Assembly (NCBI GenBank): GCA_012520915.1
Contig: JAAYNJ010000022.1
Span: 124,001-188,000 of the forward strand
Source: Oscillospiraceae bacterium
GTDB lineage: Bacteria; Bacillota; Clostridia; Oscillospirales; Ruminococcaceae
DNA length: 64,000 nt
Direction: 5' to 3'
A program made the translations under genes and the position numbers. Under the pieces are notes generated by a model. It made no database searches, was not told where the DNA came from, and was given only the letters and a program-made list of their open reading frames with translations. Shown piece by piece: positions 42,439-63,270 of the stretch (positions are counted from its first letter, which is position 1; every line of letters begins with the position of its first letter).

Positions 42439-43257
42439 TTAAATTAATCCGTGTTGCTTTAAAACATGGTCTGCAATTTCTAAATTAGTTGTAATCCATG
42501 CACCTCGGGTTTTCATATAACAGATAAGACGTGTTAAAGATAATACTCGCCCGGAACGACCTGAAAATTGGGGGTGGATGATAAAATCTATTACCTTACC
42601 TCCTTCGAGTGCAAGCGCATCAAACTCGTCTCTCCATACCTCGAACTGGTCGCTTGCGCTCAATAAACCATAGCGGGCAGGTGGGCTATCAATGTAGTAA
42701 TTATAGGCCGTGTCGTCAAAAAATACATCAGCTTCTAAGTCTACCAATGGAATACTCTTTTCGCCTAATTTCACTATTTGAGGACCGTCCCAATTCCCCC
42801 GGTAAGAGACGTAACGATACCCTCGTTCAAGGAGAATTTGTGCAAGTTCGTCCGTAAATTCTGCCTCGGTTGGGCGATAGCCATAGGGTCTTTCACATCC
42901 GAGAGACTCAAATATCTTTTCACACTTTGCCAAATTGTCATATTCGGAACCGATAGGTTTATCATAATGGTGGTATCCGTGGTAGGCAATCTCATGCCCT
43001 TTGCGGTTTATTGTTTTTACAATTTCAGGGTATTTTTCCGCATTTACGCCCGGAATAAAGAAAGTTGCTTTTATGTCAGTCTCATCAAGCATTTTCAATA
43101 TTCGAGGTAAGCCCTGTTTTGCTCCGTAAGTACCTTTTGACATGTGTACTGTATGCCCGGGATCCAAACGATTAGATTCTGACCAATTCAACTCCAAGTC
43201 AACATCAAAAGCAAACGAAACGGCTATACGTGCATCATTTGGCCACTTAACAAGCAT
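42439..43257 (-). CDS. PuuE-like polysaccharide deacetylase-fold hydrolase (copy 1)
   Basis: 272 aa, NodB-fold. Motif 1 is SFAFDVDLE (D18, D20), motif 2 is GHEIAYHGYHHY (H88, H93, H96), and the late HPQFSGRSGRV matches the HP-x-GR-x-R signature of the PuuE allantoinase / PgdA-like subgroup. Such enzymes hydrolyse cyclic amides (allantoin, imides) or N-acetyl groups of glycans. No signal peptide is present, which speaks for a small cytosolic substrate. It overlaps the next paralogue by one base (TAATG) and is the last gene of the minus-strand operon. Confidence 0.85.
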   Translation of the reverse strand: MLVKWPNDARIAVSFAFDVDLELNWSESNRLDPGHTVHMSKGTYGAKQGLPRILKMLDETDIKATFFIPGVNAEKYPEIVKTINRKGHEIAYHGYHHYDKPIGSEYDNLAKCEKIFESLGCERPYGYRPTEAEFTDELAQILLERGYRYVSYRGNWDGPQIVKLGEKSIPLVDLEADVFFDDTAYNYYIDSPPARYGLLSASDQFEVWRDEFDALALEGGKVIDFIIHPQFSGRSGRVLSLTRLICYMKTRGAWITTNLEIADHVLKQHGLI

Positions 43258-44114
43258 TAGGTCCTCCCCCCTTTTTCTTCATACTTTTTTATGTAAAGTG
43301 CTATCTGCTCACATGTAGCGAACCAAGCCCCTTTTGATAGGGCATAACCGATAAAGTCCGACAACATCTTAATTCTGCCTGCCCGCCCGATTATTTGAGG
43401 GTGGAGCTTTAAATTGAATAATTTATCTCTTTCAAGAATCATACCATCAAATTCTTCACGCCAAATTTCAAAGACTTTTGAGTTTGTAAAGGGAACTCGA
43501 TGACCGGGTTCTATTGCGGTTGAATAGTAGAAATATGTAAAGTCATCAAGAAGAACGTCAGTGGGCAGTTCAACTATGCCGTCGGGTCTCAAATATCCGT
43601 AATCACAATCTCGAAGATTTGAACTATATAAATACCCGCGCTCCACCATAAGAGAATACGCATCTTCATGTAAGGTGCTGTGCGGAGCACGATGACCTAC
43701 TGGCCTTCGTCCAAAAACTTTTTTAATCGCATTTTCAGAACGTTCCATTTTAGCTGACTCAATACTCCGGGCAGTTCCGCGTTCTGGAATATGGTTCCAA
43801 CCATGGTATGCTAGTTCATGGCCGGCGGACACAATGGATTTTACTCTTTCCGGATAGTTTTCAACAACCCATCCCGGAGTAAAAAAGGTTGCTTTTATCC
43901 CGTATTCGCAAAGCATACGCAAAATTCTTGGAATTCCCTCATTTGCACCGTATCGCCCCTGATCTCGTTCATCCGGCTCTTTACCCTGGCGCGCGAGCTG
44001 GCTGATTCTTAGAGTCTCTGCTTCAAATTCTATGCCCAAGGCAAAAGCTATTGGCCTACCGTCAGGCCAAACTATACCATTTCCGAGTTTTTCACCATTA
44101 AAATTGTTTATCAT
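43257..44114 (-). CDS. PuuE-like polysaccharide deacetylase-fold hydrolase (copy 2)
   Basis: 285 aa, paralogue of the gene after it. Motif 2 GHELAYHGWNH (H99, H104, H108) and HPQIIGRAGRI are kept, but motif 1 reads AFALGIEFE, so the two Asp of copy 1 are G27 and E29. Pseudomonas PuuE allantoinase also lacks the usual motif 1 Asp, so this copy may be the closer match to a metal-independent or altered allantoinase-type chemistry. ATG 44114 has AAAGGA upstream on the minus strand. Cytosolic, no signal peptide. Confidence 0.83.
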   Translation of the reverse strand: MINNFNGEKLGNGIVWPDGRPIAFALGIEFEAETLRISQLARQGKEPDERDQGRYGANEGIPRILRMLCEYGIKATFFTPGWVVENYPERVKSIVSAGHELAYHGWNHIPERGTARSIESAKMERSENAIKKVFGRRPVGHRAPHSTLHEDAYSLMVERGYLYSSNLRDCDYGYLRPDGIVELPTDVLLDDFTYFYYSTAIEPGHRVPFTNSKVFEIWREEFDGMILERDKLFNLKLHPQIIGRAGRIKMLSDFIGYALSKGAWFATCEQIALYIKKYEEKGGRT

Positions 44115-44133
44115 TTACAAATCCTTTCAAAAA

Positions 44134-45528
44134 CTAACTTTCCGGATTTTTTAAAATATCGATAAGTTTGGTTATGGATTCTTTTGCATCTCCCAACAAG
44201 ATACTGACTCCGGATGGTCTTGAATAAATCGGGTTTTCGACCCCTGCATATCCCGGTTTAAGATCGTAGTTGCAGATTATTATATTTTTTGCAAGATCCA
44301 CATTTAGGATAGGCATTCCGTAAATGGGAGTATCTGTAGCATCGCGCGCTGCCGGATTTATTACATCATTAGCTCCGATAACTATTGCCAGGTCGCATTT
44401 TTCAAAATCCTCATTTATATCATCAAGTTCATATAAATCCTCATAATCAATATCAGCTTCGCAAAGCAAAACATTCATGTGTCCGGGCATGCGACCGGCT
44501 ACAGGATGAATTGCAAATCTAACTGTGACTTTTGAGGATGTAAGAACGTCATAAAGCTCTTTAATGAGAAATTGAGCTTGAGATAGAGCCATTCCGTAAC
44601 CGGGAACAATAATAATATTTTTTGCATCTCGAATCGTCATAAGAACTTCAGTTGAATTATTTTTGTCGAATTTTTCCGAGTTCTCTATTTTAGTAACATG
44701 TTCGGGGACAGAAGATTCACTATTGGATACTGTAGTTTTACCTAGAAGAATGTCGGCAAGACTTCGATTCATTGAACGACACATTATTTGAGTCAAAAGA
44801 AGACCGCTTGCTCCTACAATTCCGCCAATTGCAACAAGCAGTATATTATAAACAGCCATTCCTGCAATAGAACCGGCGACACCGCTGAGTGAGTTAAGAA
44901 GAGAAATTGTTATCGGCATGTCCGCACCGCCAACAGCGAAAGCAAACAATGTACCGAATATAGCAGAAGCAACTATTCCTATGAAAAGTGCTGTATAAGA
45001 GAATTTGCCTATCGTTGGAAAGACTATTGAAAGAATCATCAAACTAACGAGAATGATGCTGACGGTAAGGTGACCTTTAAAACTTCGCGGTGCAGAGTCT
45101 ATTTTTTTTGAGAGCTTACCGGCAGCAATTAAGCTCCCGGTAAATGTAATAGTGCCGATTACTACGGCTAACATTGCGGTTGCAAGTGAAAAAGCTTCCC
45201 CGGTACAGGTCAAAAATTCAATACCCCCAATAATTGCACTCGCTAACCCCCCAATCCCGTTCAACAAAGCAACAGTTTCAGGCATCTCAATCATTTTTAC
45301 CTTTGAAGACCAAATCAAACCAAATATTGAAGCCGCAAGCAAACATATCAAAACAATTGAAAGATTACCCGGATTGCGGATTATTGTGATTGCTACAGCC
45401 AACATTAAAGCACCTGCTCCTAACAGGTTTCCGAATAATGCAGTCTTAACTTTTGACATTAAATAGATACCTGTGAGCACAATCAAAGTAAGGGCGGCAC
45501 AAACTATGTAGTATGCAAAGTTGCTCAT
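44134..45528 (-). CDS. pntB: NAD(P) transhydrogenase beta subunit
   Basis: Membrane and NADP(H)-binding subunit of the proton-translocating transhydrogenase that makes NADPH from NADH using proton motive force. About nine hydrophobic segments (1-265) and a C-terminal domain with IIIVPGYGMALSQAQ, AIHPVAGRMPGHMNVLL and VIGANDVINPAA. 464 aa. GGAGGAC precedes the ATG at 45528. It overlaps the pntAB gene by four bases. Finding it inside a catabolic operon is unusual. Confidence 0.94.
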   Translation of the reverse strand: MSNFAYYIVCAALTLIVLTGIYLMSKVKTALFGNLLGAGALMLAVAITIIRNPGNLSIVLICLLAASIFGLIWSSKVKMIEMPETVALLNGIGGLASAIIGGIEFLTCTGEAFSLATAMLAVVIGTITFTGSLIAAGKLSKKIDSAPRSFKGHLTVSIILVSLMILSIVFPTIGKFSYTALFIGIVASAIFGTLFAFAVGGADMPITISLLNSLSGVAGSIAGMAVYNILLVAIGGIVGASGLLLTQIMCRSMNRSLADILLGKTTVSNSESSVPEHVTKIENSEKFDKNNSTEVLMTIRDAKNIIIVPGYGMALSQAQFLIKELYDVLTSSKVTVRFAIHPVAGRMPGHMNVLLCEADIDYEDLYELDDINEDFEKCDLAIVIGANDVINPAARDATDTPIYGMPILNVDLAKNIIICNYDLKPGYAGVENPIYSRPSGVSILLGDAKESITKLIDILKNPES

Positions 45529-45818
45529 TTGTCCTCCTCTCCGCGTTTATGTACAAACATCTTTAACATCCTGTGAGTCACACTAAAACCACCAACAACA
45601 TTTGTAAAAGCAAGGACAACAGCGAGACCCGAAAAGATTTGCACTATTGGTTTTGAACTTGTTGCAGTTGCAACTAAGGCTCCCAAAACGGTTACGCCGG
45701 AAAGTGCATTCATTCCGGACATAAGAGGGGTGTGGAGCAGACTTGGTACTTTTCGAATTATCAAGTACCCAACTATTGAAGAAATTAAAAATACGCCAAC
45801 CATCAAAAGTTCCATCAT
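45525..45818 (-). CDS. pntAB: NAD(P) transhydrogenase alpha subunit, part 2 (membrane part)
   Basis: 97-residue membrane protein with three hydrophobic segments. PLMSGMNALSGVTVLGAL and NVVGGFSVTHRMLKMF are typical of the membrane part of the alpha subunit. In E. coli it is fused to PntA; here, as in Rhodospirillum and many others, it is separate. Four-base overlaps on both sides imply coupled translation. Confidence 0.93.
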   Translation of the reverse strand: MMELLMVGVFLISSIVGYLIIRKVPSLLHTPLMSGMNALSGVTVLGALVATATSSKPIVQIFSGLAVVLAFTNVVGGFSVTHRMLKMFVHKRGEEDK

Positions 45819-46975
45819 TTAACCCCCATAGCTTCAAGCGCGCCACTGTGTACAACATTTTTTCCGTCGGTTACCAAGATCGAACGGACAATTTCATCAT
45901 TCATATCCAGGTATATCTCTCCGTCTTTAGTCAAATAGTTGACAAGGTTAAAGATGTTTTTTGCAAACATCCAAGTAGAACTTTTGGGTAGATGCCCCGG
46001 AATATTCTTTATGCCGAATAAACTTACGCCGTGTTCTATAGAGATATCACCGGGAGGGGTAATCTCGCAATTTCCGCCTTGATCAATCGATATGTCAACG
46101 ATAACCGAGCCCGGCTTCATATTTTGCACCATCTCTTCGGTTATCAAAATAGGCGCAATTTTTCCGGGAACAAGTGCGGAAAGAAAAATGATATCCATTT
46201 TTTTAACCGTTTCAAATAGAACTTCTCTTTCTTTTAAAATCCAATAATCAGGGAGCGGGTTGGCATATCCCCCTTCTGCAACGGCAATTTTTTCAGGTAT
46301 AGGCATATCAACAATTTTGGCTCCAAGGCTTGTGGCCTGTTCCACTGCATCGGGACGTATATCACATGCAAACACACTTGCTCCTAAACGTTTTGCGGTA
46401 GCTATAGCTTGTAAGCCCGCAACACCGGCACCAACTACAAACACATTTGCGGGTTTCGTTGAACCGACGGCACTGAATATCGGAGGTATAAACCAACCCA
46501 AGCGTTCCGCGGCCATGATAATTCCGCGATACCCGGCACAAGTGCTCATGGAAGTTAGAGCGTCCATACTCTGTGCTCGGGAAATTCGAGGGATTCCATC
46601 AAGCGTAAGGCCGATAACTCCGGATCTTGCCATTTTATTGACCATTTCGTGGTTTGCCGGAGAAGCAGGGTGAATAAATGTTATAAGATACTGCCCTCTG
46701 TGCATCATGTCCAGCTCGTGAATATCTTTCTGTGTATTGAAGAGAGGTTCCTTTACTTTTAAAATCAAATCTGCACGCTCGTATAAATCAGCTACATCAC
46801 TTATTAATTCTGCACCGGCATCTACATACAGAGAATCTGGATAATAAGCGCCCTCACCCGCACCTGATTCCACTAAAACAACGTTTCCGCTGTCAATCAT
46901 TTTTTTTACTGTTTCAGGAATAGCCGATACACGTCTCTCTTCATGCATAATTTCTTTTGGAATACCAATAACCAT
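45815..46975 (-). CDS. pntAA: NAD(P) transhydrogenase alpha subunit, part 1 (NAD-binding)
   Basis: 386-residue soluble NAD(H)-binding subunit, related to alanine dehydrogenase. IGIPKEIMHEERRVSAIPETV opens it (split at RVSA), YLITFIHPASPANHE is typical, and the Rossmann motif is VVGAGVAGLQAIATAKRLGA. It lies 15 bases after the M20 gene in the same train and completes a three-subunit transhydrogenase. Confidence 0.94.
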   Translation of the reverse strand: MVIGIPKEIMHEERRVSAIPETVKKMIDSGNVVLVESGAGEGAYYPDSLYVDAGAELISDVADLYERADLILKVKEPLFNTQKDIHELDMMHRGQYLITFIHPASPANHEMVNKMARSGVIGLTLDGIPRISRAQSMDALTSMSTCAGYRGIIMAAERLGWFIPPIFSAVGSTKPANVFVVGAGVAGLQAIATAKRLGASVFACDIRPDAVEQATSLGAKIVDMPIPEKIAVAEGGYANPLPDYWILKEREVLFETVKKMDIIFLSALVPGKIAPILITEEMVQNMKPGSVIVDISIDQGGNCEITPPGDISIEHGVSLFGIKNIPGHLPKSSTWMFAKNIFNLVNYLTKDGEIYLDMNDEIVRSILVTDGKNVVHSGALEAMGVK

Positions 46976-46990: not shown

Positions 46991-48109
46991 TCAGACAAAT
47001 AATAATTTTTGCAAAATAATTCCAGACTTTTCGATCTCTTCAATAGATACCCATTCATCAGCGACATGCATATTGTTGCCGAAAGGGCCGTAGCAGACTG
47101 AAGGTATTCCGGAATCGGACAAAATATTGCAGTCACTAACCCCGTCGTCAAAAGATAAAGATGGAGATTTACCTGTGACGGTTGTAACTGCGGCTATAAG
47201 TTTTTGAAGAATTGGGTTATTTTCTTCAAGCCGATAGGCAGGATAATATGGTTGTCCGATTTTGAACTCAAAACGGGAAGCAAAATTGAGATTTTCATAC
47301 AATTTCCTGAGAGAACCAAGAACGCTGTCTCCGGTTTCTCCGGGAACGGTTTGTTTACCAATTATAAAATGACAGTAGTCAGGGACATCTGGACTGTAAA
47401 AATCTTTTCCCCCATTAATTCGAAGCGGCATAAAAGGCTGGGCCTTGCAATGAGGATGTGAGGGAAGTTTGATATTATCAATTGCAGAGATAAACCGTGA
47501 AGCTTCAGTTATCGAATTAATTCCTTTTTGGGGTTCAGATCCATGTGCAGAACGCCCAAACACCTCGCATTCCAAAACAAGCTTACCTACTGCACCTATT
47601 ACTATCTCGCCAAAAGACGGTTCAAGAGCTATTCCAAAGTCAACAGGGGGAAATTCTAAAGAAAATTTACGTGCTCCTGCAGAAAAAGCTTCCTCATCAG
47701 GGAAAAATGCTATTACCAAATCGCCTTTGAGTTTGGATCGATCAAGAGATATATTTTCTGCAATGGATAATGCGATAGCTATACCGGCCTTCATATCTTG
47801 AGAACCGCGACCATATATGCGATCCCCCTCAATGGTTGCACTGAAAGGATTTCTCCTCCAACCTTCTCCGGCAGAAACGGTGTCCATATGACCAAAAATT
47901 AGTATTTTAGGACCGGCTCCACCCTTAAAATGTGCCACAACATTGAATCGCCCGTCTTGCAAAGGTTGTCGATAGATTAAATTCGGCCTGCATTTCTTGA
48001 GGCTCTCCTCAATAAATTCAGCGATTGTGTTTTCCGTTCCGGTTACGGAAGGTATCTCGATAAGAGTTTTCAATTTTGAAATAGTTTCACTGGTTTTAAA
48101 ACATGACAT
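46991..48109 (-). CDS. M20 family metallohydrolase (ArgE/DapE/carboxypeptidase type)
   Basis: 372 aa. Zinc ligands are visible in FGHMDTV, GRGSQDMKAG, FFPDEEAFSAGA and the late CYGPFGNNMHVADEWV. The family removes acyl, succinyl or carbamoyl groups from amino acids or dipeptides. Here it stands between a racemase and the transhydrogenase genes in the eight-gene train, so a role on an N-substituted amino acid produced by ring opening fits. ATG 48109 has only a weak ribosome binding site. Substrate not determined. Confidence 0.88.
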   Translation of the reverse strand: MSCFKTSETISKLKTLIEIPSVTGTENTIAEFIEESLKKCRPNLIYRQPLQDGRFNVVAHFKGGAGPKILIFGHMDTVSAGEGWRRNPFSATIEGDRIYGRGSQDMKAGIAIALSIAENISLDRSKLKGDLVIAFFPDEEAFSAGARKFSLEFPPVDFGIALEPSFGEIVIGAVGKLVLECEVFGRSAHGSEPQKGINSITEASRFISAIDNIKLPSHPHCKAQPFMPLRINGGKDFYSPDVPDYCHFIIGKQTVPGETGDSVLGSLRKLYENLNFASRFEFKIGQPYYPAYRLEENNPILQKLIAAVTTVTGKSPSLSFDDGVSDCNILSDSGIPSVCYGPFGNNMHVADEWVSIEEIEKSGIILQKLLFV

Positions 48110-48117: not shown

Positions 48118-48834
48118 CTATTCTATTCTTATTTTGTCCATGGGACGCGGATGACTTATCTTGCTATGTGAAATCCCGATTGAGACAAGTAATTCCGCAT
48201 ATTTTACAGCGGCAAATGCCGGATCTATTACAGGAACTCCGAGTTCTTTTGTGAGTTGTGCGGCAAGTCCTGCCATTCCCAGACAGGAAAGCACAATACA
48301 TTGAGCCCCATCAGTTTCGACACACTGCCGCCCGACGTCTAATAATGCTTTGTAGGTTTCGCAAAGGTCTTCACGCACATCTGATACGGAAATATCAATG
48401 CTTCTAACAGAAGCAAGACGGTTCATATCAATGCCTTTTCGATATACTTCCTCGGTATCGCCCGGGATACAACATTTCAGTACGGTTATCACCGAAAACT
48501 TATAGGCTAGATCGACAGCGATTAATTTTGAAAGCTTCCCTGGACCGACTACCGGAATATCTACAAGTTCTCGCGCCGCCCCTATTGCGGGATCATCCCC
48601 GCAATATATAATCACTGCGTCAAACCCGTTTTCTTCTGCCTCAATCACCTTTTTTAACAGATATACTGAAGCAAGGACTTCGTCGTAAGCGGACTCTATG
48701 CTTTCAGGTCCTTTATCAATGCAATCTACTGATATTTTTGTCCCAGGGGCGGCGCACTCCGACAACATTTCTTCACGAGATTTCAGAGTTTCTGAATCCA
48801 TACCACTATTTGGAATAATAACTTTCAACTTCAT
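48118..48834 (-). CDS. Asp/Glu/hydantoin racemase family protein
   Basis: 238 aa. The two catalytic cysteines are C78 in IIYCGDDPAIGAAREL and C184 in IVLSCLGMAGL, the spacing expected for hydantoin and amino acid racemases of this family. It has no close similarity to the second racemase at 57239 beyond the fold (different strand blocks), so it may act on another substrate. It overlaps the M28 gene upstream by four bases. Confidence 0.85.
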   Translation of the reverse strand: MKLKVIIPNSGMDSETLKSREEMLSECAAPGTKISVDCIDKGPESIESAYDEVLASVYLLKKVIEAEENGFDAVIIYCGDDPAIGAARELVDIPVVGPGKLSKLIAVDLAYKFSVITVLKCCIPGDTEEVYRKGIDMNRLASVRSIDISVSDVREDLCETYKALLDVGRQCVETDGAQCIVLSCLGMAGLAAQLTKELGVPVIDPAFAAVKYAELLVSIGISHSKISHPRPMDKIRIE

Positions 48835-50591
48835 TTTTCTTCACCAATCACTTTAAACAGAAGTTCAAGTTCATAATTAACAGCATGTAGATTATCTGCC
48901 ACACGGTTCCTGTTGCGCAAAAGTTCTGTGTAATTCAGCTTAAACTCCAAATTGCTCCGATCTGTTTTTGACAGCTTAATTAGTCCGAAAAGCAGGGGGA
49001 TAGGCTTTGAAAGAATGCTGAGCCCATAGCTGTCCTGGGAATATTTATCGGTATAGGTAAACATTGAGGCAGTCAATGCTCTGCTAACCCTCATAAGTGA
49101 GTCATTTAACAAGGAAAGTTGATCTTTTGTCAACTTATCGTCATTTCCCAGAAATCTTAAATTGTTAAGTTCCTTTACATAACTTGAAAAAATATTAGCT
49201 TCGTCAATAACATTGTTCAAATCTATTATATTGCCCGACTGCTCACGTATATATTCAAGTTTCTCAAGTAGATATTCTGCCGTTTTTGAAAAATCGTAGG
49301 GAAGAACTTTTGCATTCACCAAACCTAAAAGTATACCGACGTCTACTTTATTGTCGCGTTCTAAAACGGATACATCCATTTTGTCAAGGTTATCTTCAAC
49401 TGTATGGTTCCACCAACCCAAACAAGCACCGTTTTGCTCGACAATTACTTCATGAGGCAGTCCGACACGCCCTGCTATTGAAGGAACACCTGTTCCGAAG
49501 AATGATTGATCGCCTGTTTTTTCCAGAAAATACATAAGCGAGTCTTCGCCCAAAACTTCTTGGGTTGTTTGTCTCGCATAATCCGATAATTCGCGTGAAG
49601 CTTCGTTTTCGTAAACTACACAGTCTTTCATGCCTGTAGAATCGATATTTATATATCCGATACAATTTTTATTTATTTCTTCAAAAAAGTAATCATGAAA
49701 CCAAGTTGACCCGGCTGCTTCAGCTATCTCGTGACCGTTCCAATTGACAAAATAAATACTTCTTTTTAATTCGGATTGGTATTTTCCGAAAACTCTGGCT
49801 AATTCGAGTAGAGTTGCTATTCCTGTGGCATTGCAGGTAACACCGGGTTCCCACGCATCAAGATGTGCACTGACAAGCAGAAATTTCTCAGGTTGTTCAG
49901 TACCTGTGAGTTTACCGAAAGGTTGACTTAACATCATCCACTCACGTGTTGCATCGGCGCGAAGATTTATTTTCACTTCGCCTTTTGCACATAAATCTCG
50001 AAGATATTCTCCGGATTTTCTGGAAACACTTATACCCGCCACTTGCGGTATCTGTCTAAAAGTTTCAGGCGTCGGATTTCCCCAAACGGCTTTGAGCGCA
50101 CGATTACAAATGAAAGGTTGATCTGTTCCCCAGTTCATACAAATCATTGCAGCTACTCCGTGTTTTGAAGCGATCATTGCCTTTTCAGGAGTGGCAGGTG
50201 AATATGATACCTCTACTAGTATGGCTTTTCCCCGAAGGTCTTTGCCCTCATAATCTGCTTCGCCTCCGGAACCGAGATAAACAAGAGGCAAATCAATTCC
50301 CTGAGGTAACGTTGAAGCAATATGACAACATGGCAATGAATCGATAACGGTTGTCTCGGGAGATAAAACTATCAGGTGAGAACTTCCCCCGTGACTGTTA
50401 TAGGCTTCGAACTCCAATAAGTTCCCCTCTAACCCGTAATCGCTAAACCTATCACGAATGTATTCAGCAGCAACAGTATCCTGACCTTTTCCCGAAATTC
50501 TGGAGGGAGTATTTTCTGTAAGCCATTTTACATGACTGACAGCAATCTCGGAATCAAGTTCCGAGAGCATTCTTTTTAACAAATCACTCAT
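48831..50591 (-). CDS. Diverged M28 family metallohydrolase with PA-type insert
   Basis: 586 aa. N-terminal part (1-110), a PA-like insert (about 100-215), then the M28 catalytic domain and a helical C-terminal domain (about 420-586). Expected ligands: H243 in SAHLDAW, D317 in NIDSTG, H396 in NHTVEDN and E288 are there, but the bridging Asp of the family is C253 (GVTCNATG) and the catalytic Glu before E288 is H287 (NGHEIAEAAGS). The enzyme may thus be altered in mechanism or inactive as a peptidase. Start ATG 50591 has AAGGTG upstream; the frame open to 50765 runs into the intergenic region. First gene of the minus-strand train. Confidence 0.8.
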   Translation of the reverse strand: MSDLLKRMLSELDSEIAVSHVKWLTENTPSRISGKGQDTVAAEYIRDRFSDYGLEGNLLEFEAYNSHGGSSHLIVLSPETTVIDSLPCCHIASTLPQGIDLPLVYLGSGGEADYEGKDLRGKAILVEVSYSPATPEKAMIASKHGVAAMICMNWGTDQPFICNRALKAVWGNPTPETFRQIPQVAGISVSRKSGEYLRDLCAKGEVKINLRADATREWMMLSQPFGKLTGTEQPEKFLLVSAHLDAWEPGVTCNATGIATLLELARVFGKYQSELKRSIYFVNWNGHEIAEAAGSTWFHDYFFEEINKNCIGYINIDSTGMKDCVVYENEASRELSDYARQTTQEVLGEDSLMYFLEKTGDQSFFGTGVPSIAGRVGLPHEVIVEQNGACLGWWNHTVEDNLDKMDVSVLERDNKVDVGILLGLVNAKVLPYDFSKTAEYLLEKLEYIREQSGNIIDLNNVIDEANIFSSYVKELNNLRFLGNDDKLTKDQLSLLNDSLMRVSRALTASMFTYTDKYSQDSYGLSILSKPIPLLFGLIKLSKTDRSNLEFKLNYTELLRNRNRVADNLHAVNYELELLFKVIGEEK

Positions 50592-50623
50592 GTTTAACAC
50601 CTTCATAGTCTTAATAGAAACGG

Positions 50624-50758: not shown

Positions 50759-50769
50759 AATGCAATGAA

Positions 50770-50778
50770 TGATATACT
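50770..50778 (+). promoter_or_regulatory. Predicted promoter of the plus-strand train
   Basis: TGA-TATACT (50770-50778) is an extended -10 with no clear -35, leaving a leader of about 95 bases before the APC permease gene. Confidence 0.45.
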
Positions 50779-50790
50779 CAACTAAATAGG

Positions 50791-50834: not shown

Positions 50835-50881
50835 AAAACCTGTTTCTAAACATGAAACTTAATAGAGAGGAGTAATTGCAA

Positions 50882-53697: not shown

Positions 53698-53766
53698 AGA
53701 TTAATAATTTTTAAAACAATCACACTATCTTCATGTTTAAATTTGCTTAATTATATGGAGGAAATG

Positions 53767-55875: not shown

Positions 55876-57222
55876 ATGTTTGATTTGCGTGTTAAAAATG
55901 GAATATTAGTTGTATCGGGTGAAGAGATAAAGACCGATTTATATGTTAAAAAAGGCGTTGTATCAGCAATTTCAAGCGAAGATTTACCTGCTGAATTGAT
56001 AGTTGATGCTGAAGGTAAATATGTATTTCCAGGATTTGTTGATCCGCATTCGCATATGAATGATCCTCCCGGAGGAGATGTAAGTGAAGATTTTTATACA
56101 GGAACATGTTCTGCTGCAGCAGGAGGTATCACAACATCTATAGAAATGCCATTGACTACTCCGGTTACAGCCACGAAAAAGGCTCTGATAGATAAAATTA
56201 ATATATGTGGAAAGAAAGCGGTTGTCGACTTTTCAATGATATGCGGATACACACCGGATAATGGTGATGAAATCGAGCCAATGCTTTCGGCAGGAGCAGT
56301 AGGTTTTAAAGCATTTACTCCGTATTCCACTGAAATCAAACGACTGGATGACGCAGATTTATACAAAGCATTAAGTCGTCTTTCAGGAACAGGGGTGACC
56401 CTTTCAATACATTGCGAAAATGCTGATATTGTAAAAAAGTTCACGGATGAGTTAAGAGAAAACGGAAAAGTTTCTCCTGAATACTATGGGCAGGGAAGGC
56501 CGGAAATAGCAGAAATCGAGTCAGTAATGAAAGTAAGTCTGATGGCATATAAAACGGGAGCAAAAGTAAATATAGCTCACTGTTCATCTCCGGAAGCTGT
56601 CGATATTGCGTCATATTATCGGCAGTTGGGTGCCGATATTTCCGTTGAAACTTGTACCCATTATCTTGCCTTAAACGATAAGGATATTGAGAAGTGGGGA
56701 GTTTATTGTGTGTGTAACCCTCCATTAAGAAGCGAAAAAACAAGGAACGAGCTGTGGAAAAGGGTAGTGGAGGGGAAAATTGACTTTATAGGAAGCGACC
56801 ATTCCGCATATCTTCACTCTGAAAAAGCCGAAGGAAAAGATGACATATTCTTGACACCTGCAGGAATTACAGCTCTACAGACATGTTACCCAATATTCTT
56901 TGATGAAGCAGTAAATAAACGCGGTATGCCGGTTGCAAGATTTTGTGAAATGACGAGTGCGTCCGCGGCAAAACGTTTTGACATATATCCACGTAAAGGC
57001 TCCCTGATGGTTGGTTCGGATGCGGATTTTGTCATATTTGATGCTGGGAAAAAATGGAAAGTCAGAAGTGATGACTTCTTTTATCTGGAAAAATGGACTC
57101 CGCATGAAGGCCAAACTGTCACAGGCTCAGTTGAAAGAACATTTGTCCGCGGGCAGGAAGTTTTTTCGAGTGGAAAAATAGTTGTAAAAGCCGGTAGTGG
57201 ACAATTTATCGCCAGAAATTAA
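55876..57222 (+). CDS. Cyclic amidohydrolase (allantoinase/dihydropyrimidinase-like)
   Basis: 448 aa TIM-barrel amidohydrolase. All metal ligands of the class are visible: H58 and H60 (VDPHSHMND), the carbamylated lysine K145 (VGFKAFTPYS), H179 (SIHCENA), H235 (IAHCSSPE) and D308 (GSDHSAY). These enzymes open five- and six-membered cyclic ureides such as allantoin, hydantoin or dihydropyrimidines. The adjacent allantoin/hydantoin racemase and allantoate-amidohydrolase-like gene favour a ureide ring. AllB and HydA cannot be told apart safely from sequence alone. GAAAGGA precedes ATG 55876. Confidence 0.88.
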   Translation: MFDLRVKNGILVVSGEEIKTDLYVKKGVVSAISSEDLPAELIVDAEGKYVFPGFVDPHSHMNDPPGGDVSEDFYTGTCSAAAGGITTSIEMPLTTPVTATKKALIDKINICGKKAVVDFSMICGYTPDNGDEIEPMLSAGAVGFKAFTPYSTEIKRLDDADLYKALSRLSGTGVTLSIHCENADIVKKFTDELRENGKVSPEYYGQGRPEIAEIESVMKVSLMAYKTGAKVNIAHCSSPEAVDIASYYRQLGADISVETCTHYLALNDKDIEKWGVYCVCNPPLRSEKTRNELWKRVVEGKIDFIGSDHSAYLHSEKAEGKDDIFLTPAGITALQTCYPIFFDEAVNKRGMPVARFCEMTSASAAKRFDIYPRKGSLMVGSDADFVIFDAGKKWKVRSDDFFYLEKWTPHEGQTVTGSVERTFVRGQEVFSSGKIVVKAGSGQFIARN

Positions 57223-57238
57223 CTGTGAGGAGATAAAG

Positions 57239-57901
57239 ATGAAGCGAATACTGCTATTAAATCCAAATTCCACGAAAAGTGTGACAGAAAGAATTTCGAA
57301 AACTGCCAAACGCTATGATCAGCCGGGATTTATAATTGAAACAATAACCTGTGAGGATGCCCCTAGCGCAATAGAAACATCATATGACGAACTTATGTCG
57401 GGGAAAGCCGTTGTAGATGAACTTTCAAAGAGAGAGTTTGATGCTGCTGCCATCTGCTGTTTCTCGGATCCTGGACTTTTATCTGCACGTGAATTATTCA
57501 GTCAACCGATAGTGGGAATCTGCCAGGCGGCTGTGAACTATTCTGCTCTGTTTTCACGAAGGTTTTCTATAATTGCTTCAGGTGGATCGAGTGAAATTGA
57601 CTCCTTTATAAACCAAATGAAAAGTTATCAAGCTGGGGAAAGATTGGCATCTGTTGAATATCTTGACACGGGAGTTTTGGGTGTAACAACAAATTCTGAT
57701 GAGATTTCGGAAAGAATAGAAAAATGTATAAAAGACCACGGCGTGGGTGCAGTTCTTTTGGGGTGTGCAGCGTTCTCCGGACTTTCGGAAAAACTATCTG
57801 CCAAGCATAAAATATTTGTAAGTGAAGGTGTAGGTCCTGCAATTCTAACGCTGGTTTCACTTATGAATTTTCGAGAATCTAATAAAGGATGGTTGAAATG
57901 A
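57239..57901 (+). CDS. Hydantoin/allantoin racemase family protein
   Basis: 220 aa. LLLNPNSTKSVTERI at the N-terminus and CCFSDPGLLSAREL with catalytic C74, plus LLGCAAFSGL with C176, match the hydantoin/allantoin racemase group more closely than the gene at 48118. It interconverts the two enantiomers of a 5-substituted hydantoin or allantoin so both can be used. ATG 57239 has GAGGAG upstream; the last four bases overlap the next gene (ATGA). Confidence 0.87.
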   Translation: MKRILLLNPNSTKSVTERISKTAKRYDQPGFIIETITCEDAPSAIETSYDELMSGKAVVDELSKREFDAAAICCFSDPGLLSARELFSQPIVGICQAAVNYSALFSRRFSIIASGGSSEIDSFINQMKSYQAGERLASVEYLDTGVLGVTTNSDEISERIEKCIKDHGVGAVLLGCAAFSGLSEKLSAKHKIFVSEGVGPAILTLVSLMNFRESNKGWLK

Positions 57902-59124
57902 ACCTCGGAGAAAGAATAGAAAATAAACTGAATCTGTTGGCTGAGGTATCAAAAATTGATGACATAATCTGGAGAGCGGCATACACTCCGGAGTATGAGG
58001 CTGCAAAAAAACTCATTAAAAAATGGGCTGTTGAGAGCGGACTGGATATGAGAGAAGATTCCGTTGGAAACCTCTACGTCTCAATACGTGGCAAAACAAA
58101 AGAAACAATATTGGTTGCATCGCACTTAGATACGGTACGTGACGGAGGAAAATATGATGGAGCAGCGGGTATAATCTGTGGTCTTGTCGCACTTCAAGAG
58201 TTAAAGTCGGAAGGATTTTCTCCGGAGTTGAATTTAGAGTTGGTTGCCCTGCTTGAGGAGGAAGGAAGTCGGTTTTCTTCATCCTGTCATGGCAGCTGTG
58301 CTATATGTGGAACATTTGATTTCGCAGCGCTTGATGAGTGTGACAGAGACGGAGTGAGTTTCCGGGAAGCTATGACGGCTTCCGGTTATTTTCCTGAAGA
58401 TATAGGTTCTGCAAAACGGGACGACATTTTCTCAGTAATTGAGCTCCATATAGAGCAGGGACCATATCTTGAAGATAATGGAATGGACATAGGAATAGTT
58501 GACGCGATAGTTGGCATTGTAACATACGATATAGTGATTGAAGGACAACAAAACCATGCCGGGACAACCCCAATGAATATGCGATTAGATCCTGTAACTG
58601 AAATGGCAGGCTTTGTTACAAAAGTAACAAACAAAGCGATAGCATTAGGAACACCGACAGCTACTTTCGGATACATCAGATCATTTCCCGGTATGCTTAA
58701 TGTCATTCCGAATCGAATTGAAATGACGTTGGATGTAAGGGATGGTGATGAAGAGATATTGAGAGATTTTGAAGAAAAGATTAAATCAGAGTTAGATTTG
58801 ATTTCGCAAAAAGGATTCAAAACCGATGTAAATCGCACTCAGTGGTCGCCGCCCGTTTCTATGAACATAGAGTTGGGTAAAATTATAGAAAGAACTTGCA
58901 AAAAGCTTAACCTCAATTATTGCCACATGAACAGTGGGGCTGGTCATGATTCGATGGTGTTTGGAAAAAAATTTAAAACGGCCATGATTTTTGTGCCAAG
59001 CAGAGACGGAATTAGTCACCACAGGGATGAATATACATCTCCAGCACAACTTGAAAAGGGATGTCTTTTGCTAAAAGAATTATTGATTGAATTAGCTACA
59101 AAAAATACTAAAAATATTATTTGA
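57898..59124 (+). CDS. M20 amidase, allantoate amidohydrolase / N-carbamoyl-amino-acid hydrolase type
   Basis: 408 aa. Metal ligands H76 (ASHLDTV), D87 (KYDGAAG), E121-E122 (LLEEEGSRF), the His of IELHIEQGP and the His of SHHRDEYT are all present, as is the GHDSMVFG block. This group hydrolyses N-carbamoyl or ureido groups, releasing CO2 and ammonia. Together with the cyclic amidohydrolase and racemase just upstream it makes a hydantoinase-racemase-carbamoylase triad. ATG 57898 overlaps the racemase stop by four bases. Confidence 0.88.
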   Translation: MNLGERIENKLNLLAEVSKIDDIIWRAAYTPEYEAAKKLIKKWAVESGLDMREDSVGNLYVSIRGKTKETILVASHLDTVRDGGKYDGAAGIICGLVALQELKSEGFSPELNLELVALLEEEGSRFSSSCHGSCAICGTFDFAALDECDRDGVSFREAMTASGYFPEDIGSAKRDDIFSVIELHIEQGPYLEDNGMDIGIVDAIVGIVTYDIVIEGQQNHAGTTPMNMRLDPVTEMAGFVTKVTNKAIALGTPTATFGYIRSFPGMLNVIPNRIEMTLDVRDGDEEILRDFEEKIKSELDLISQKGFKTDVNRTQWSPPVSMNIELGKIIERTCKKLNLNYCHMNSGAGHDSMVFGKKFKTAMIFVPSRDGISHHRDEYTSPAQLEKGCLLLKELLIELATKNTKNII

Positions 59125-59137
59125 AAGGAATAATGTA

Positions 59138-60475
59138 ATGAAGAAATCTTTAGTAGCACTTGTAGGAGTTGCAAGTCATGATGAGAGTGGCGGATATAGA
59201 GCTGAGGAGCTTTTAGATGCCGCTGAAAAAAGAATAAAAGCGGAGGGCTTTGATGTCTACAGAGCTTCTAGGGTTGTTTGGACACAGTCGGACGCATTGG
59301 TGATTTCAAGCGAGCTCGAGGATATGAAAATTAGCTCACTTGTAGTATTAAACATCACATGGGTGGCGGATTCCCTTTTATATCTGTTGCTTCATAAAAT
59401 TCATGTGCCGTTTGCTTTATGGGCTGTACCTTTTACAGAAACATTTGCATTAGGTTGCGTACAGCATATGGGAGCGACCCTGAAAATGGTAAAGTTCCCG
59501 TTTCAACCGCTTTACGGGGACGCAGATAATCCAAACTTAATAAAAAAGCTCGTCCGGTTTTTAAAAGCTTCAGCTGCAATTTGTGAAATTCGCAACATGC
59601 GTGTAGCTCTTATGGGTCCCCGTCAAACTTGGCGGGTTGCTGGCCCTCAGGATATGAGTCTTGAAGAGTGGGATTTTTCACTCAAGTTTGGAGTCACTAT
59701 AATTCATTTTGAAATGGATGAATTATTAGACCGTGTCGATAAAATAGATGATAGCGATGCAAAAATTACCCTTGCTTGTCTTGAAAAACGGATTGGAAAT
59801 TCGTCGGCCGGTGAAGAACGGATGATTTTTGCGGCAAAAGTATATAAAGCGCTAAAGCAAATAATTGAGGAAAATTCTCTTGCGGGAATAGCAGCGGAAT
59901 GCTATCCGAAATTTGACGGAATAACAAATCTTTCAGCGGCATGGTTGGCCGATGAGGGGATTGTTATTGAGACCGAGGGGGATATTTCAAATACCGTATT
60001 GCGCGCTGTATTAAATTCAATAGATAAAGAAGGAACAACATTTCTGGGAGAAGCCGGCAGTTACAATGTCAATGAGAACTACATGTTTATGTCTCATGGC
60101 GGAAGCACCGCTCCGACATTATCAGATGAGTTGAAAAGGGTTGAGGTTTCAGCTAGCGGAGAAATGGGTACTTATGTGGGTACTCCAATAAAGGCGATGA
60201 AGGATGTGACGATTTCTAATTTAACCGGATCGAACGGAAATTACAAAATGTTGATTGCCTCCGGAGAGACATTGCAAGTAAGTGATGAAGATTACGACAA
60301 AACGGGTAAAAGACTGGCATCAAAAGTTCGCTTTAAAAATGCAGATATTGCGACCGCATTTGAAAAACTATTCAAGTCCGGTATTGATCATCACCTTGTG
60401 TTGAGAGAAGGCGATCATACCGATATTCTTGCTACGATTGCAGATCTTATGGGAATTGAAAAAGTAATCATATAG
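59138..60475 (+). CDS. L-fucose/L-arabinose isomerase-like protein
   Basis: 445 aa. The fold and blocks GIAAECYPKFDG, ETEGDISNTVLRAVLNSI, TFLGEAGSYN and FMSHGGST resemble L-fucose isomerase-like proteins, including a Glu, an Asp and a His at metal-ligand positions. No sugar kinase, aldolase or sugar transporter is near, and the neighbours are ureide enzymes, so the substrate is probably not fucose; an open-chain carbohydrate-like intermediate or a ketose/aldose formed from a nucleoside is conceivable. GAAAGGA precedes ATG 59138. Confidence 0.75.
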   Translation: MKKSLVALVGVASHDESGGYRAEELLDAAEKRIKAEGFDVYRASRVVWTQSDALVISSELEDMKISSLVVLNITWVADSLLYLLLHKIHVPFALWAVPFTETFALGCVQHMGATLKMVKFPFQPLYGDADNPNLIKKLVRFLKASAAICEIRNMRVALMGPRQTWRVAGPQDMSLEEWDFSLKFGVTIIHFEMDELLDRVDKIDDSDAKITLACLEKRIGNSSAGEERMIFAAKVYKALKQIIEENSLAGIAAECYPKFDGITNLSAAWLADEGIVIETEGDISNTVLRAVLNSIDKEGTTFLGEAGSYNVNENYMFMSHGGSTAPTLSDELKRVEVSASGEMGTYVGTPIKAMKDVTISNLTGSNGNYKMLIASGETLQVSDEDYDKTGKRLASKVRFKNADIATAFEKLFKSGIDHHLVLREGDHTDILATIADLMGIEKVII

Positions 60476-60498
60476 ATGCTTTATATTTGGAGGATAAA

Positions 60499-61920
60499 AT
60501 GCCAATAAAAATTGATATGTTAGTGAAAGCCCCTCACATATATACAATGGAGGGAGAGGGAGTTGGATACCGTTCGAACACTACCTTGGCTATTGATTCA
60601 GGTAAAATAATTGATGTTTTTTCTGCATCCGAAAACCGTTATGAGGCAAATGAATACATTGACTTAAAACATCATGTTGTGCTTCCGGGTTTCATAGATT
60701 CGCATATGCACACAGGCGATAATATTATGCGAGGCTTGGCACAGGATACCTCTCATTGGATGATGTATGGGCTTCAACCGTTTGACAATGTTGTGAGCGA
60801 CGATGAGCTCGATGCGGGCAGTCGGCTGGCAATAATTGAAGCGATTAAAGCCGGGACTACGACATTGGGAGACTACAATTGGCAGATGGAAAATGTTTGC
60901 AGATTCATTAAAAAAATCGGAGCTCGCGGACATATCACTCAAATGATCCGGGCGATTGTGTCAAGAGTATACGATCCGGGCGAACTATATGAGTTTGATG
61001 AAATAAAAGGAGAAGAAAGTTTTAAACGCAATCTTGAACTTTTTGAGAAATGGCATGGGGCTGAAGGAGGGAGAATCAGAATTCTTTTTGGGCCACAAGG
61101 GGCCGACTTTGTAAGTCCGGAACTGTTGCTTAAAGTAAAAAAAGCCGCAATTGAGCGAAAGACCATGATACATATGCATGTCCAGCAGGGAGAACGCGAG
61201 ACTGCCCAGATGATTGGGCGTTACGGCAAACGAACGACAGAGTTTCTTGCAAAAATCGGATATTTGGATAGCACTCTTATGGCTGTGCACCTTGCGGATT
61301 GTAATGACCAGGAAGCTGCGGAAATTGCTAAAAGCGGTGCTTCTATGCTGTTTTGTCCCGGCTCTATCGCGATAATTGACGGAATATTACCTCCCGTTCT
61401 TCCATTTATTGAAGCGGGAGGAAAAGTTGCATTGGGGTCAGATCAGGCTCCGGGCAACAATTGTCATAATATCATCAATGAGATGAAGAATGCGGCACTT
61501 TTTTGTAAGTTGGAAAAGAAAAATCCTGAAATAATGCCTGCTTGGAAAGTGTTGCGTATGGCGACTATCGAGGGGGCAAAAGCAATAGGACTTGGAGATG
61601 AAATAGGTTCTTTAGAAATTGGCAAACGCGCAGATTTCATAGCAATAGATCTGCATGTTCCGTCAATGCAACCGGTTTACACATTTCCTATGAGGAATAT
61701 AGTTCCCAATCTTGTGTATTCTGCTCGCGGTTCAGAGGTAGTATTTTCTGTAGTTGATGGAAGAATAATTATGGAAAATGGTAAAATTTCCGGAATAGAT
61801 GAATTGGAATACATACGTGATGTTGATAAATATCCTGATGATATTGGCAGACGGGCGAGCGAGGAGTTTTATCGAATAAACGGTACAAATGCAAGGTTTA
61901 TGTCTGAAGGAAAACTATAA
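60499..61920 (+). CDS. Amidohydrolase of the SsnA/AtzA/guanine deaminase group
   Basis: 473 aa. The class motif is H69-x-H71 (GFIDSHMHTGD), then IHMHVQQGERE, VHLADCNDQE and GSDQAPGNNCHN supply the other metal and substrate residues. Members deaminate or dechlorinate heterocyclic rings (guanine, 8-oxoguanine, cytosine, s-triazines) or, as SsnA, take part in anaerobic purine use. It is the last enzyme gene of the plus-strand train. ATG 60499 follows GGAGGA (60489-60494). Confidence 0.86.
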   Translation: MPIKIDMLVKAPHIYTMEGEGVGYRSNTTLAIDSGKIIDVFSASENRYEANEYIDLKHHVVLPGFIDSHMHTGDNIMRGLAQDTSHWMMYGLQPFDNVVSDDELDAGSRLAIIEAIKAGTTTLGDYNWQMENVCRFIKKIGARGHITQMIRAIVSRVYDPGELYEFDEIKGEESFKRNLELFEKWHGAEGGRIRILFGPQGADFVSPELLLKVKKAAIERKTMIHMHVQQGERETAQMIGRYGKRTTEFLAKIGYLDSTLMAVHLADCNDQEAAEIAKSGASMLFCPGSIAIIDGILPPVLPFIEAGGKVALGSDQAPGNNCHNIINEMKNAALFCKLEKKNPEIMPAWKVLRMATIEGAKAIGLGDEIGSLEIGKRADFIAIDLHVPSMQPVYTFPMRNIVPNLVYSARGSEVVFSVVDGRIIMENGKISGIDELEYIRDVDKYPDDIGRRASEEFYRINGTNARFMSEGKL

Positions 61921-62106
61921 GACATACTGTATCCGAATATTCCACCTTACTGATATTATTATTTCACCAAAATGCGAAAATACTTGGTTGATTTTGTTCA
62001 ATTCTTAAAAGTGGCTTGAAAACAACAAATGATACATGATATTTTTATATTGGTAGTTATTTGAAATTAGTATCAGTTTATGAGAGCAATCTTAGGAGGT
62101 GGAAGT

Positions 62107-63270
62107 TTGCTGACGGTTATGAATGCATTATCACAACCACTTTTTAAGGGTTTTAGATTTCTTTCAGGTGTAAAAGGAGCTGCTAATATCATAACGGGAG
62201 TCGGAATATTTGAATGGGAAACTCTCGATGATATAGAAACGGATTTCATGCAAGGAGAATTTGTTGTCACGACTCTTTCGTGTGCAAGAAATGACGTTGG
62301 TTACGCGTGCGAATGCTTGAAGGCCCTTATTGATAAAAAGGTTGCTGCTATAGCAATAAAAAACATATATTTTAGCGAGTTGCCACAAGAAATTCTAAGG
62401 TATTCAGATAATGCACAAGTCCCGATATTTTCTTTCAGCGATGCAAATTTTGAAGATTTGATTTTTAATATTAAAAATGCAATTGAACTTGGAGGATTGA
62501 ATAAAGAATGGAATCGAGCTGTAGAGAATCTCATAAGAGGTAAGGGGAAACCGAAAAAACTAAGCGAATTGGCTCGAGAACTGAATCCTTTTTTTTATAA
62601 GCATCATATATGCGCAAGTTGTGTTATGCGTGACAACAGCACCAAAATACTTGAACAGGTGAGTTTTGAGTACAGTAATATGTCTCACAAGCTACCTTCT
62701 TTTGAGCGAGCAGTGTTTATGTTAATAGAAAGAAGAAACAACCTTTTAGCAATCTATTCTTCTGCCATAAATGAGAACTTGAAACGGGAAATTTTACGAT
62801 TGCTATCAGATGTTGGAATAAACCAGGATAAATTCAGGATAGGGTTGAGTTCTATTAAACATGAGCTGCATATGATGGGTACTAGTATTAAGGAAAGTTT
62901 TTATGCTGCTATAACATGCCGTATAAATGGAGAGCAACTACTTGAGTTCGAAAAAATTGGGTTAAACAGATTTCTATGTCCGCTTAGAAACAGTGATTGG
63001 ATAAAAGAGTTTTATAGCGATTATTTATCAAAACTTGAAGAATATGATAATAAGAATAAATCCAATCTGCTGGAAACACTTCTTACATATGTTGCGTGTG
63101 GCGGAAATGTTGCCGCAACTGCCAAGCAAATGTATCAACATAGCAACACAATCCGATACAGGCTCGAAAAGATCAGGGGACTTTTGGGTCTGGGAGATTC
63201 TATAAATTCCTATACTAACCTTTATGTTTTTGCCATTCTGTATGATATATATAAAAATTTTGACGTGTAA
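62107..63270 (+). CDS. PucR family transcriptional regulator
   Basis: 387 aa. The N-terminal half is the PucR-type sensor domain (LFKGFRFLSGVKGAAN, IFEWETLDDIETDFMQGEFVVTT), the middle a GGDEF-like degenerate region, and the C-terminus a PucR helix-turn-helix (TYVACGGNVAATAKQMYQHS then NTIRYRLEKIRGLLG). PucR of Bacillus controls purine and allantoin catabolism, which supports such a role for the locus. TTG 62107 is the best start: AGGAGGTGG (62094-62102) lies five bases before it; ATG 62080 lacks a site. It probably controls both trains. Confidence 0.9.
   Translation: MLTVMNALSQPLFKGFRFLSGVKGAANIITGVGIFEWETLDDIETDFMQGEFVVTTLSCARNDVGYACECLKALIDKKVAAIAIKNIYFSELPQEILRYSDNAQVPIFSFSDANFEDLIFNIKNAIELGGLNKEWNRAVENLIRGKGKPKKLSELARELNPFFYKHHICASCVMRDNSTKILEQVSFEYSNMSHKLPSFERAVFMLIERRNNLLAIYSSAINENLKREILRLLSDVGINQDKFRIGLSSIKHELHMMGTSIKESFYAAITCRINGEQLLEFEKIGLNRFLCPLRNSDWIKEFYSDYLSKLEEYDNKNKSNLLETLLTYVACGGNVAATAKQMYQHSNTIRYRLEKIRGLLGLGDSINSYTNLYVFAILYDIYKNFDV

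Follow-up and report, generated by a model that had tools for sequence, protein, structure and literature searches.

In a 64,000-nucleotide (nt) stretch of DNA from an Oscillospiraceae bacterium (hereafter the window, within which all coordinates are given), two divergent gene trains and a gene for a PucR-type regulator make up a real and apparently intact catabolic locus, in which an amidohydrolase of a rare COG0402 clade lies together with hydantoin racemases and ring-opening enzymes. Our tentative reading, to which we give somewhat less than an even chance, is that the locus imports a small cyclic guanidine, with a 2-amino-imidazolin-4-one ring probably carried on an amino acid, and dismantles it by hydrolysis. 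What merits further work is that members of this distinctive clade keep company with racemases and ring openers, both in the window and in two lineages besides it. The initial annotation of this DNA had described 17 genes, eight on the minus and nine on the plus strand, leaving a common 290-base region and followed by a PucR gene, and we confirmed their order and strands. From the centre outwards, the minus train codes for an M28 peptidase-like protein, racemase A, an M20 hydrolase, PntA1, PntA2, PntB, PuuE2 and PuuE1, adjacent genes overlapping or lying no more than 19 nt apart. The plus train codes for an APC permease, the aminotransferase AT5, a 229-residue protein, a MATE exporter, AllB, racemase B, AllC, a FucI/AraA-like protein and the COG0402 amidohydrolase; the PucR gene lies 159 nt beyond it on the plus strand. 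Family scans against NCBIfam and Pfam took in 17 of the 18 locus proteins, that is, all except PntA2. The genes on which the argument turns are the following:

60487 to 61920, plus strand: COG0402 amidohydrolase of the rare clade, with HxxQ and [ST]DQxxGNN motifs
55876 to 57222, plus strand: AllB, of the hydantoinase/allantoinase family (TIGR03178, 381.5 bits, cut-off 357.85)
57197 to 57901, plus strand: racemase B, hydantoin racemase-like (PF01177, 134.1 bits; 3qvj, E 2.1e-26)
57889 to 59124, plus strand: AllC, of the carbamoylase/allantoate amidohydrolase family (TIGR01879, 368.1 bits, cut-off 204)
48118 to 48834, minus strand: racemase A, hydantoin/allantoin racemase-like (PF01177, 126.8 bits; 3qvj, E 4.6e-31)
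43257 to 44114, minus strand: PuuE2, a second PuuE-like protein in tandem with PuuE1 (PF01522, 75.4 bits)
42439 to 43257, minus strand: PuuE1, PuuE-like, with a polysaccharide-deacetylase fold (PF01522, 66.4 bits; TIGR03212, 83.6 bits, cut-off 424.6)

The product of 60487-61920 had been called an SsnA-like deaminase. Since its scores against both the SsnA model (TIGR03314, 112.6 bits, cut-off 455.5) and its best model (PRK09045, 276.3 bits, cut-off 540) fall under the cut-offs, it reaches neither, and it belongs instead to a rare clade of COG0402, to which we refer below as the SsnA-like clade. Residues H73, H75, H231, H268, D319 and Gln234 are invariant in all eight aligned clade members. Six further members share Gln234, which the window protein thus has in common with each of its 13 examined relatives. 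In COG0402 deaminases, such as those acting on methylthioadenosine/S-adenosylhomocysteine (MTA/SAH) or 8-oxoguanine, the catalytic Glu follows the strand-5 His by three residues. Glu occupies this position in five solved COG0402 relatives, one of which is named an MTA/SAH deaminase, whereas the window protein has Gln. Among the solved relatives is 7ww2, labelled hydroxydechloroatrazine ethylaminohydrolase. Because members of the COG0402 family strip ammonia or alkylamines from nitrogen-rich rings, the enzyme would be suited to make a hydantoin from a cyclic guanidine, and we propose that it is a cyclic-guanidine aminohydrolase.

We searched for the clade at E 1e-80 with the window protein as query or, within the genus of genome G929, with the G929 protein (G numbers denote genomes). 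It turned up in 4 of 391 genomes of the class (the window's own included), in one of 240 sampled from the window's order (its own only), in 3 of 250 from the Oscillibacter family and in 5 of 11 from G929's genus; outside the window there were 15 loci in 10 genomes. Viral contigs yielded no relative of either this enzyme or the FucI-like protein. In a phylogenetic tree, the window protein grouped with those of Oscillibacter sp. ER4 (G843, locus L193; 67% identical to the window's), G971 and G500, with a support (83/96) under the strict threshold. G929a, G1100a and G1094 formed one branch (99/100) and G1096a and G1093a another (99/100), while the remaining five clade members grouped at 88/99. 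G1093a, which is interrupted by two internal stops and could be a broken gene, is included in the locus counts; one Gln-bearing relative, being broken, stands in neither tree group.

Thirteen of the 15 outside loci were read (G1100:C33 and G1096:C35 were left out, and two Dolichospermum places known from annotation only were excluded), and a neighbour match was defined as a racemase, AllB or PuuE gene found by tblastn at E 1e-10 within 9 kb. Nine of the 13 loci had such a neighbour: a racemase at four (G843, G1094, G1096a and G1093a), a PuuE pair at three (G929a, G1100 and G1094) and AllB at four (G843, G929b, G1096b and G1093b). A control of 12 stretches (129,266 bp) from seven of the same genomes gave one such match (AllB in G971). 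In a second control of nine stretches (147,178 bp), taken around other anchors and from the window's own genome, the only match beyond the anchors themselves was an AllB-type gene in L049. In Oscillibacter sp. ER4, the SsnA-like enzyme gene adjoins genes for AllC, a racemase, a hydantoinase and, as judged by eye, an NhaC-like antiporter. In G1094, the order on one strand is racemase, SsnA-like enzyme, PuuE2 and PuuE1; this racemase is 40% identical to racemase A, and of the two G1094 PuuE proteins, window PuuE1 is closest to PuuE1 (46%) and window PuuE2 to PuuE2 (43%). In G929 the PuuE pair adjoins the SsnA-like gene (46% identity for PuuE1 in both genomes, 42-43% for PuuE2 across the two). 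Beyond a LysR gene of G929 lie the ornithine-fermentation genes for Ord, OrtB and OraE, all above their NCBIfam cut-offs; relatives 88-93% identical to them occur on the opposite strand in G1094, 6-10 kb off, and the ornithine genes likewise lie near the SsnA-like gene in G1100. Since G929, G1100 and G1094 belong to the same genus, their ornithine company counts as one case. The 45-kb contig of G929 also codes for a MATE protein 44% identical to that of the window, 6 kb from the SsnA-like gene, for FrlC (446.7 bits, cut-off 305) at 11 kb and for an APC permease 44% identical to that of the window at 13 kb, the last lying near FrlC and genes that by eye are FrlD- and FrlR-like. The idea that both trains belong together is supported for the SsnA-like enzyme, PuuE1 and PuuE2, side by side in another genus, together with the racemase in one genome and MATE and APC on a contig in another; it did not extend to the rest of the genes.

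A gene that by eye codes for an NhaC-type antiporter lies directly before the COG0402 gene in Oscillibacter sp. ER4 (L193:11696-13228), G971 (L209:17194-18726) and G500 (L198:15880-17400). The window, unlike these three closest relatives, has no such gene directly before its COG0402 gene. The antiporter may be a transporter for the same substrate.

The recurring partners of the SsnA-like clade are those needed once a 5-substituted hydantoin appears, and from this gene context we infer the following pathway. The COG0402 enzyme would swap the exocyclic amine at ring C2 for oxygen, which would leave a 5-substituted hydantoin and set free ammonia or ornithine as the amine. Racemase A or B would then equilibrate the hydantoin; as first annotated, there are two racemases, and each has two Cys, which we take to be the catalytic residues, aligned with those of the putative hydantoin racemase 3QVJ. 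Ring opening to an N-carbamoyl amino acid would fall to AllB or to the PuuE1/PuuE2 pair. AllB had been credited with all its ligands, and H58, H60, K145, H179, H235 and D308, presumably those metal ligands, are indeed all present and invariant in six aligned sequences. Finally, AllC, and perhaps the M20 hydrolase too, would split this into the amino acid, CO2 and ammonia. Import may fall to the FrlA-like APC permease, export to the MATE protein and sensing to PucR.

Arginine-derived hydroimidazolones such as MG-H1, which heated food contains in abundance as glycation products of arginine, fit best, suggesting that they are the leading candidate substrates. FrlA is a fructoselysine/psicoselysine transporter, and an MG-H1 substrate would explain the racemase, the ring opener, the ornithine genes and the FrlA/FrlC company together. 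Because MG-H1 is an imidazolone on ornithine, according to an excerpt of PMC8835445, its hydrolysis would yield ornithine and 5-methylhydantoin, the latter then giving alanine. We consider rather unlikely, as a whole, the more specific scheme in which anaerobes degrade MG-H1, G-H1 and the 3-deoxyglucosone hydroimidazolone by means of an HxxQ COG0402 hydrolase that would free ornithine to be fermented or exported, while the hydantoin would be racemised, opened by AllB or the PuuE pair and decarbamoylated. Bacterial use of fructoselysine is described, and anaerobic carboxymethyllysine breakdown by intestinal bacteria is cited, in the part of PMC12735817 that we consulted. The top-ranked matches in the open-access text of PubMed Central (PMC) contained nothing on this locus or on a gene or hydrolase for hydroimidazolone breakdown. 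A rare and easily recognised clade beside hydantoin racemases and ring openers singles out one enzyme to test. If the hydroimidazolone scheme is true, the locus would serve to use cyclic compounds derived from arginine, for example glycation products in food, and even if the substrate is another cyclic guanidine, a function would be gained for an uncharacterised amidohydrolase clade and for tandem PuuE pairs.

Several observations weigh against the cyclic guanidine pathway. Eight of the nine positive loci lie in one genus (G929, G1093, G1094, G1096 and G1100, with three gene branches) and are therefore not independent, the ninth being that of Oscillibacter sp. ER4; the first control is small, with only about 45 kb from G929's genus. 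The loci of four other genomes (G500, G728, G673 and G971) have no racemase, AllB or PuuE gene within 9 kb, and two of these four are among the closest relatives of the window enzyme in the tree. Ornithine genes are adjacent to the SsnA-like gene only in G929's genus (G929, G1100 and G1094). Of 11 genomes searched for OraE, five gave a match. It is missing from G843, G971 and the genome of the window; in G500, G728 and G673 it lies on another contig or 1.2 Mb from the SsnA-like gene. Frl-type genes 11-13 kb from the SsnA-like gene were seen in one genome only. The structure model of the COG0402 enzyme failed (predicted local distance difference test score, pLDDT, of 38.2) and was not used. The nearest enzymes to which any role is attached, two relatives in a cyanobacterial cluster, have just a proposed one, in forming the uracil ring (CyrG/CyrH, according to an excerpt of PMC2885083). 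Finally, about half of the locus (M28, M20, PntAB, AT5, the 229-residue protein, the FucI-like protein and PucR) is left unexplained by the pathway.

Free 5-substituted hydantoins, imported, racemised, opened and decarbamoylated while the COG0402 enzyme is incidental, would be an alternative diet, or likewise dihydropyrimidines. The contiguous AllB-racemase B-AllC genes (55876-59124) are, by family and residue evidence, a classical hydantoinase/racemase/carbamoylase trio, that is, an ordinary ureide-degrading set, as had been recognised in the initial annotation. The same three enzymes (the third being an N-carbamoyl-amino-acid hydrolase) characterise hyu clusters. The best solved relative of AllB is the L-selective hydantoinase 1gkr, followed by allantoinases, and the carbamoylase family of AllC and the two racemases with their aligned Cys pairs would suit such a diet. 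For racemase B, the ATG at 57239 is a likelier start than 57197. Unlike hyu clusters, the locus adds a second racemase with two PuuE-type proteins, the rare-clade COG0402 hydrolase and transhydrogenase genes. Moreover, hyu clusters carry an NCS1-type hydantoin permease, whereas no permease of this type was recognised among the scanned locus proteins, the importer being the FrlA-like APC. The use of plain hydantoins would also leave the company kept by the SsnA-like clade unexplained (nine of 13 loci, eight of them in one genus), and we regard it as rather unlikely too.

A variant allantoin pathway, with an allantoin racemase, an allantoinase (AllB or PuuE), an allantoate amidohydrolase and PucR control, appears to us improbable. 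AllB passes the allantoinase model TIGR03178, the top model of AllC is that of allantoate amidohydrolase (NF006771), which it misses narrowly (393.9 bits, cut-off 399), racemase A also matches the allantoin racemase 5lfd, and the regulator has a PucR domain. However, AllB stays under the cut-offs of the other allantoinase models NF004839 (382.8 against 631) and NF005960, and AllC under that of TIGR03176 (311.1 against 597.75). Among the scanned locus proteins, none was identified as a ureidoglycolate or ureidoglycine enzyme; the model that the class V aminotransferase fits is TIGR01976, and the COG0402 clade would have no role. The earlier choice of substrates, namely free hydantoins, allantoin or purine-derived amides, has in fact the general drawback of giving the COG0402 enzyme no clear step, and the interpretation built on it is only partly supported. 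The anaerobic reductive uric acid pathway comprises XdhD, YgfK/UacX, SsnA, HyuA, YgeY, YgeW/UacY and YgeX, as listed in an excerpt of PMC12507026. Like this pathway as excerpted, the locus brings together a COG0402 hydrolase, a hydantoinase-family enzyme and an M20 hydrolase; unlike it, it shows no XdhD, YgfK/UacX, YgeW/UacY or YgeX among the scanned proteins, and the SsnA model is missed. The reported absence of ygeX, ygeW, ygfK, xanthine dehydrogenase and urease genes accordingly stands within the locus, for the 17 proteins (of 18) that were scanned. The ergothioneine utilisation enzymes ErtD and ErtE are related to AllB (352.6 bits to NF058539, cut-off 650) and AllC (341.3 bits to NF058540, cut-off 520); both scores are under the cut-offs, and there is no other Ert match in the locus.

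In a creatinine-based diet, the COG0402 enzyme would be a creatinine deaminase and the trio would handle N-methylhydantoin. Creatinine is itself a cyclic guanidine, some 16 kb from the SsnA-like gene of G971 lies a gene of the creatininase family (141.2 bits, cut-off 235), and there is a precedent in Clostridium sp. FS41, which degrades N-methylhydantoin via N-carbamoylsarcosine without ATP (PMC4417704). However, the racemase would have no job, because N-methylhydantoin has no stereocentre, and no sarcosine or glycine reductase match was found among the scanned locus proteins. We therefore rate creatinine as very improbable.

Neither protein of the PuuE pair reaches the PuuE allantoinase model TIGR03212 (83.6 and 76.2 bits for PuuE1 and PuuE2, cut-off 424.6); PuuE1 is a probable cyclic amidase. 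The best solved chains for PuuE2 are 3rxz, 3qbu, 1z7a and 3cl6. More distant tandem PuuE-like pairs occur at L071:310-2023 (G086) and L072:3152-4313 (G064), where no AllB, AllC or racemase relative was found on the short contigs examined. This suggests a broader theme of PuuE proteins in tandem, as yet uncharacterised.

The synteny of all 17 genes, put forward earlier as a check, did not bear out: the full block was not found in any neighbourhood examined, and the largest shared set was five genes, on one 45-kb contig. Relatives were sought of the 229-residue protein (149 genomes), the FucI-like protein (394), PuuE2 (149) and AllB (391). As a core, the 229-residue protein was rejected, with relatives in 5 of 149 genomes (own included); five stretches around them (four of about 20 kb, one of 4.7 kb) held no other locus gene at E 1e-5. 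The FucI-like anchor matched 78 of the 394 genomes of the order at E 1e-3 with no close relative (28% identity at best), and four of its neighbourhoods contained no other locus gene except an AllB-type, dihydroorotase-like match in G221. The PuuE2 anchor matched 116 of 149 genomes at E 1e-3, mainly through short deacetylase-domain matches; its relatives were in tandem in G086 and G064 and single in G145, and their only neighbour was a weak M20 match in G086. The AllB anchor matched 48 of the 391 genomes of the class at E 1e-60 (37% identity at best), and ten AllB stretches in seven genomes had only AllC, racemase, PucR and one 28% SsnA match alongside. At least 80 AllB loci matched a single search pattern, and the 80 listed and read are a sample; among these, AllC accompanied AllB at 20, PucR at 8, a racemase at 3 and an SsnA-like gene at 3, while PntA1 (2), M20 (2), AT5 (1) and the same eight PucR matches were at 23-36% identity. 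At the 13 SsnA-like loci, M28, AT5, the 229-residue protein, the FucI-like protein and PucR had no match at E 1e-10, PntA1 had one (G971, 25% identity) and M20 a weaker one (G500, E 6.7e-10). M28, M20, PntAB, AT5, the 229-residue protein, the FucI-like protein and PucR thus have little or no synteny support.

These data would agree with a mosaic, in which a hydantoin module and another module for ring opening stand by chance next to unrelated genes of peptidase, sugar and redox functions. No other neighbourhood examined has more than five of the genes, relatives of the 229-residue protein, the FucI-like protein and AllB have few or no other locus genes alongside where read, and PntB had no match in four of five genomes that carry the SsnA-like clade, the fifth giving a weak, partial match. 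Nevertheless, genes of both trains cluster again in another genus (G929 and G1094) and the spacing inside each train is tight, and we consider the mosaic unlikely. The other genes and elements are as follows:

50592 to 50881, no strand: divergent control region, 290 nt between the M28 start (50591) and the APC start (50882)
48831 to 50591, minus strand: diverged M28 peptidase-like protein (PF04389, 60.9 bits)
46991 to 48109, minus strand: M20 hydrolase of the ArgE/DapE type (TIGR01910, 197.2 bits, cut-off 217.6)
45815 to 46975, minus strand: PntA1, soluble part of the transhydrogenase alpha subunit (NF006942, 373.4 bits, cut-off 383)
45525 to 45818, minus strand: PntA2, membrane part of the alpha subunit, an open reading frame of 97 residues assigned by position and by its sequence as judged by eye
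44134 to 45528, minus strand: PntB, NAD(P) transhydrogenase beta subunit (PF02233, 500.6 bits)
50882 to 52279, plus strand: APC permease, closest to FrlA (NF008466, 378.8 bits, cut-off 800)
52417 to 53697, plus strand: AT5, class V aminotransferase, cysteine desulfurase-like (TIGR01976, 395.7 bits, cut-off 352.35)
53743 to 54432, plus strand: 229-residue protein (TIM229), no NCBIfam or Pfam match at E 0.001
54462 to 55859, plus strand: MATE exporter (TIGR00797, 238 bits, cut-off 147.4)
59138 to 60475, plus strand: L-fucose/L-arabinose isomerase-like (FucI-like) protein (NF048012, 92.3 bits, cut-off 700)
62080 to 63270, plus strand: PucR-type regulator (PF07905, 54.7 bits; PF13556, 59.5 bits; both above gathering)
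42373 to 42417, plus strand: hairpin of 19 pairs between PuuE1 and the nitroreductase gene convergent with it, marking the locus boundary

The two starts that bound the control region were picked by eye from ribosome-binding-site-like sequence. The M28 protein is diverged, as first described: in an alignment with 2ek8, the positions that we take to be the bridging Asp and the catalytic Glu are Cys and His, respectively, and the other ligand positions look kept, so that an altered chemistry is possible. Three of the eight minus-strand genes, coding for the PntAB transhydrogenase, are left out of the list in the initial annotation. A search with PntB found no second copy in the window's genome, so that the sole NAD(P) transhydrogenase genes detected (44134-46975) are embedded in the catabolic train. 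The APC permease is closest to FrlA by a wide margin, though under the cut-off, the next-best family scoring only 158.9 bits. Like the frl operon, the locus thus has a FrlA-like permease, with a G929 homologue (44%) near FrlC; unlike it, the scanned locus proteins include no FrlB, FrlC or FrlD match. The structure model of the 229-residue protein is weak (pLDDT 68.3); it resembles phosphate-binding TIM barrels, and a fold search returned TIM barrels like those of KDPG aldolase and TrpA, suggesting that the protein may represent an unnamed aldolase or isomerase family. On two alphaproteobacterial plasmids (L008 and L009), its relatives have genes for PdxA and a four-carbon acid sugar kinase as neighbours; a relative in a Staphylococcus plasmid region has no such company. 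From the position of its gene, PucR may be a candidate regulator of the locus. Promoter-like sites are not enriched (56, against 50.4 with a standard deviation of 7.1 in shuffled sequence). The hairpin at 42373-42417 is terminator-like on the plus strand only in the scan. The G+C content of the locus is 0.40-0.42, and the flanks are similar.

The COG0402 enzyme is also 42.8% identical, over 99% of its length, to amidohydrolases of a cyanobacterial cluster that resembles cylindrospermopsin biosynthesis, with a MATE gene nearby; they correspond to the names CyrG and CyrH in the excerpt of PMC2885083. Unlike that of the window locus, the setting of this cyanobacterial cluster is biosynthetic, and the role proposed in that excerpt concerns the uracil ring. 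A plasmid of Dolichospermum sp. DET69 (L204), typed as conjugative, has polyketide synthase (PKS), two amidohydrolase, sulfotransferase, 2-oxoglutarate/Fe(II) (2OG-Fe(II)) oxygenase and MATE genes, and looks like a cyanotoxin cluster.

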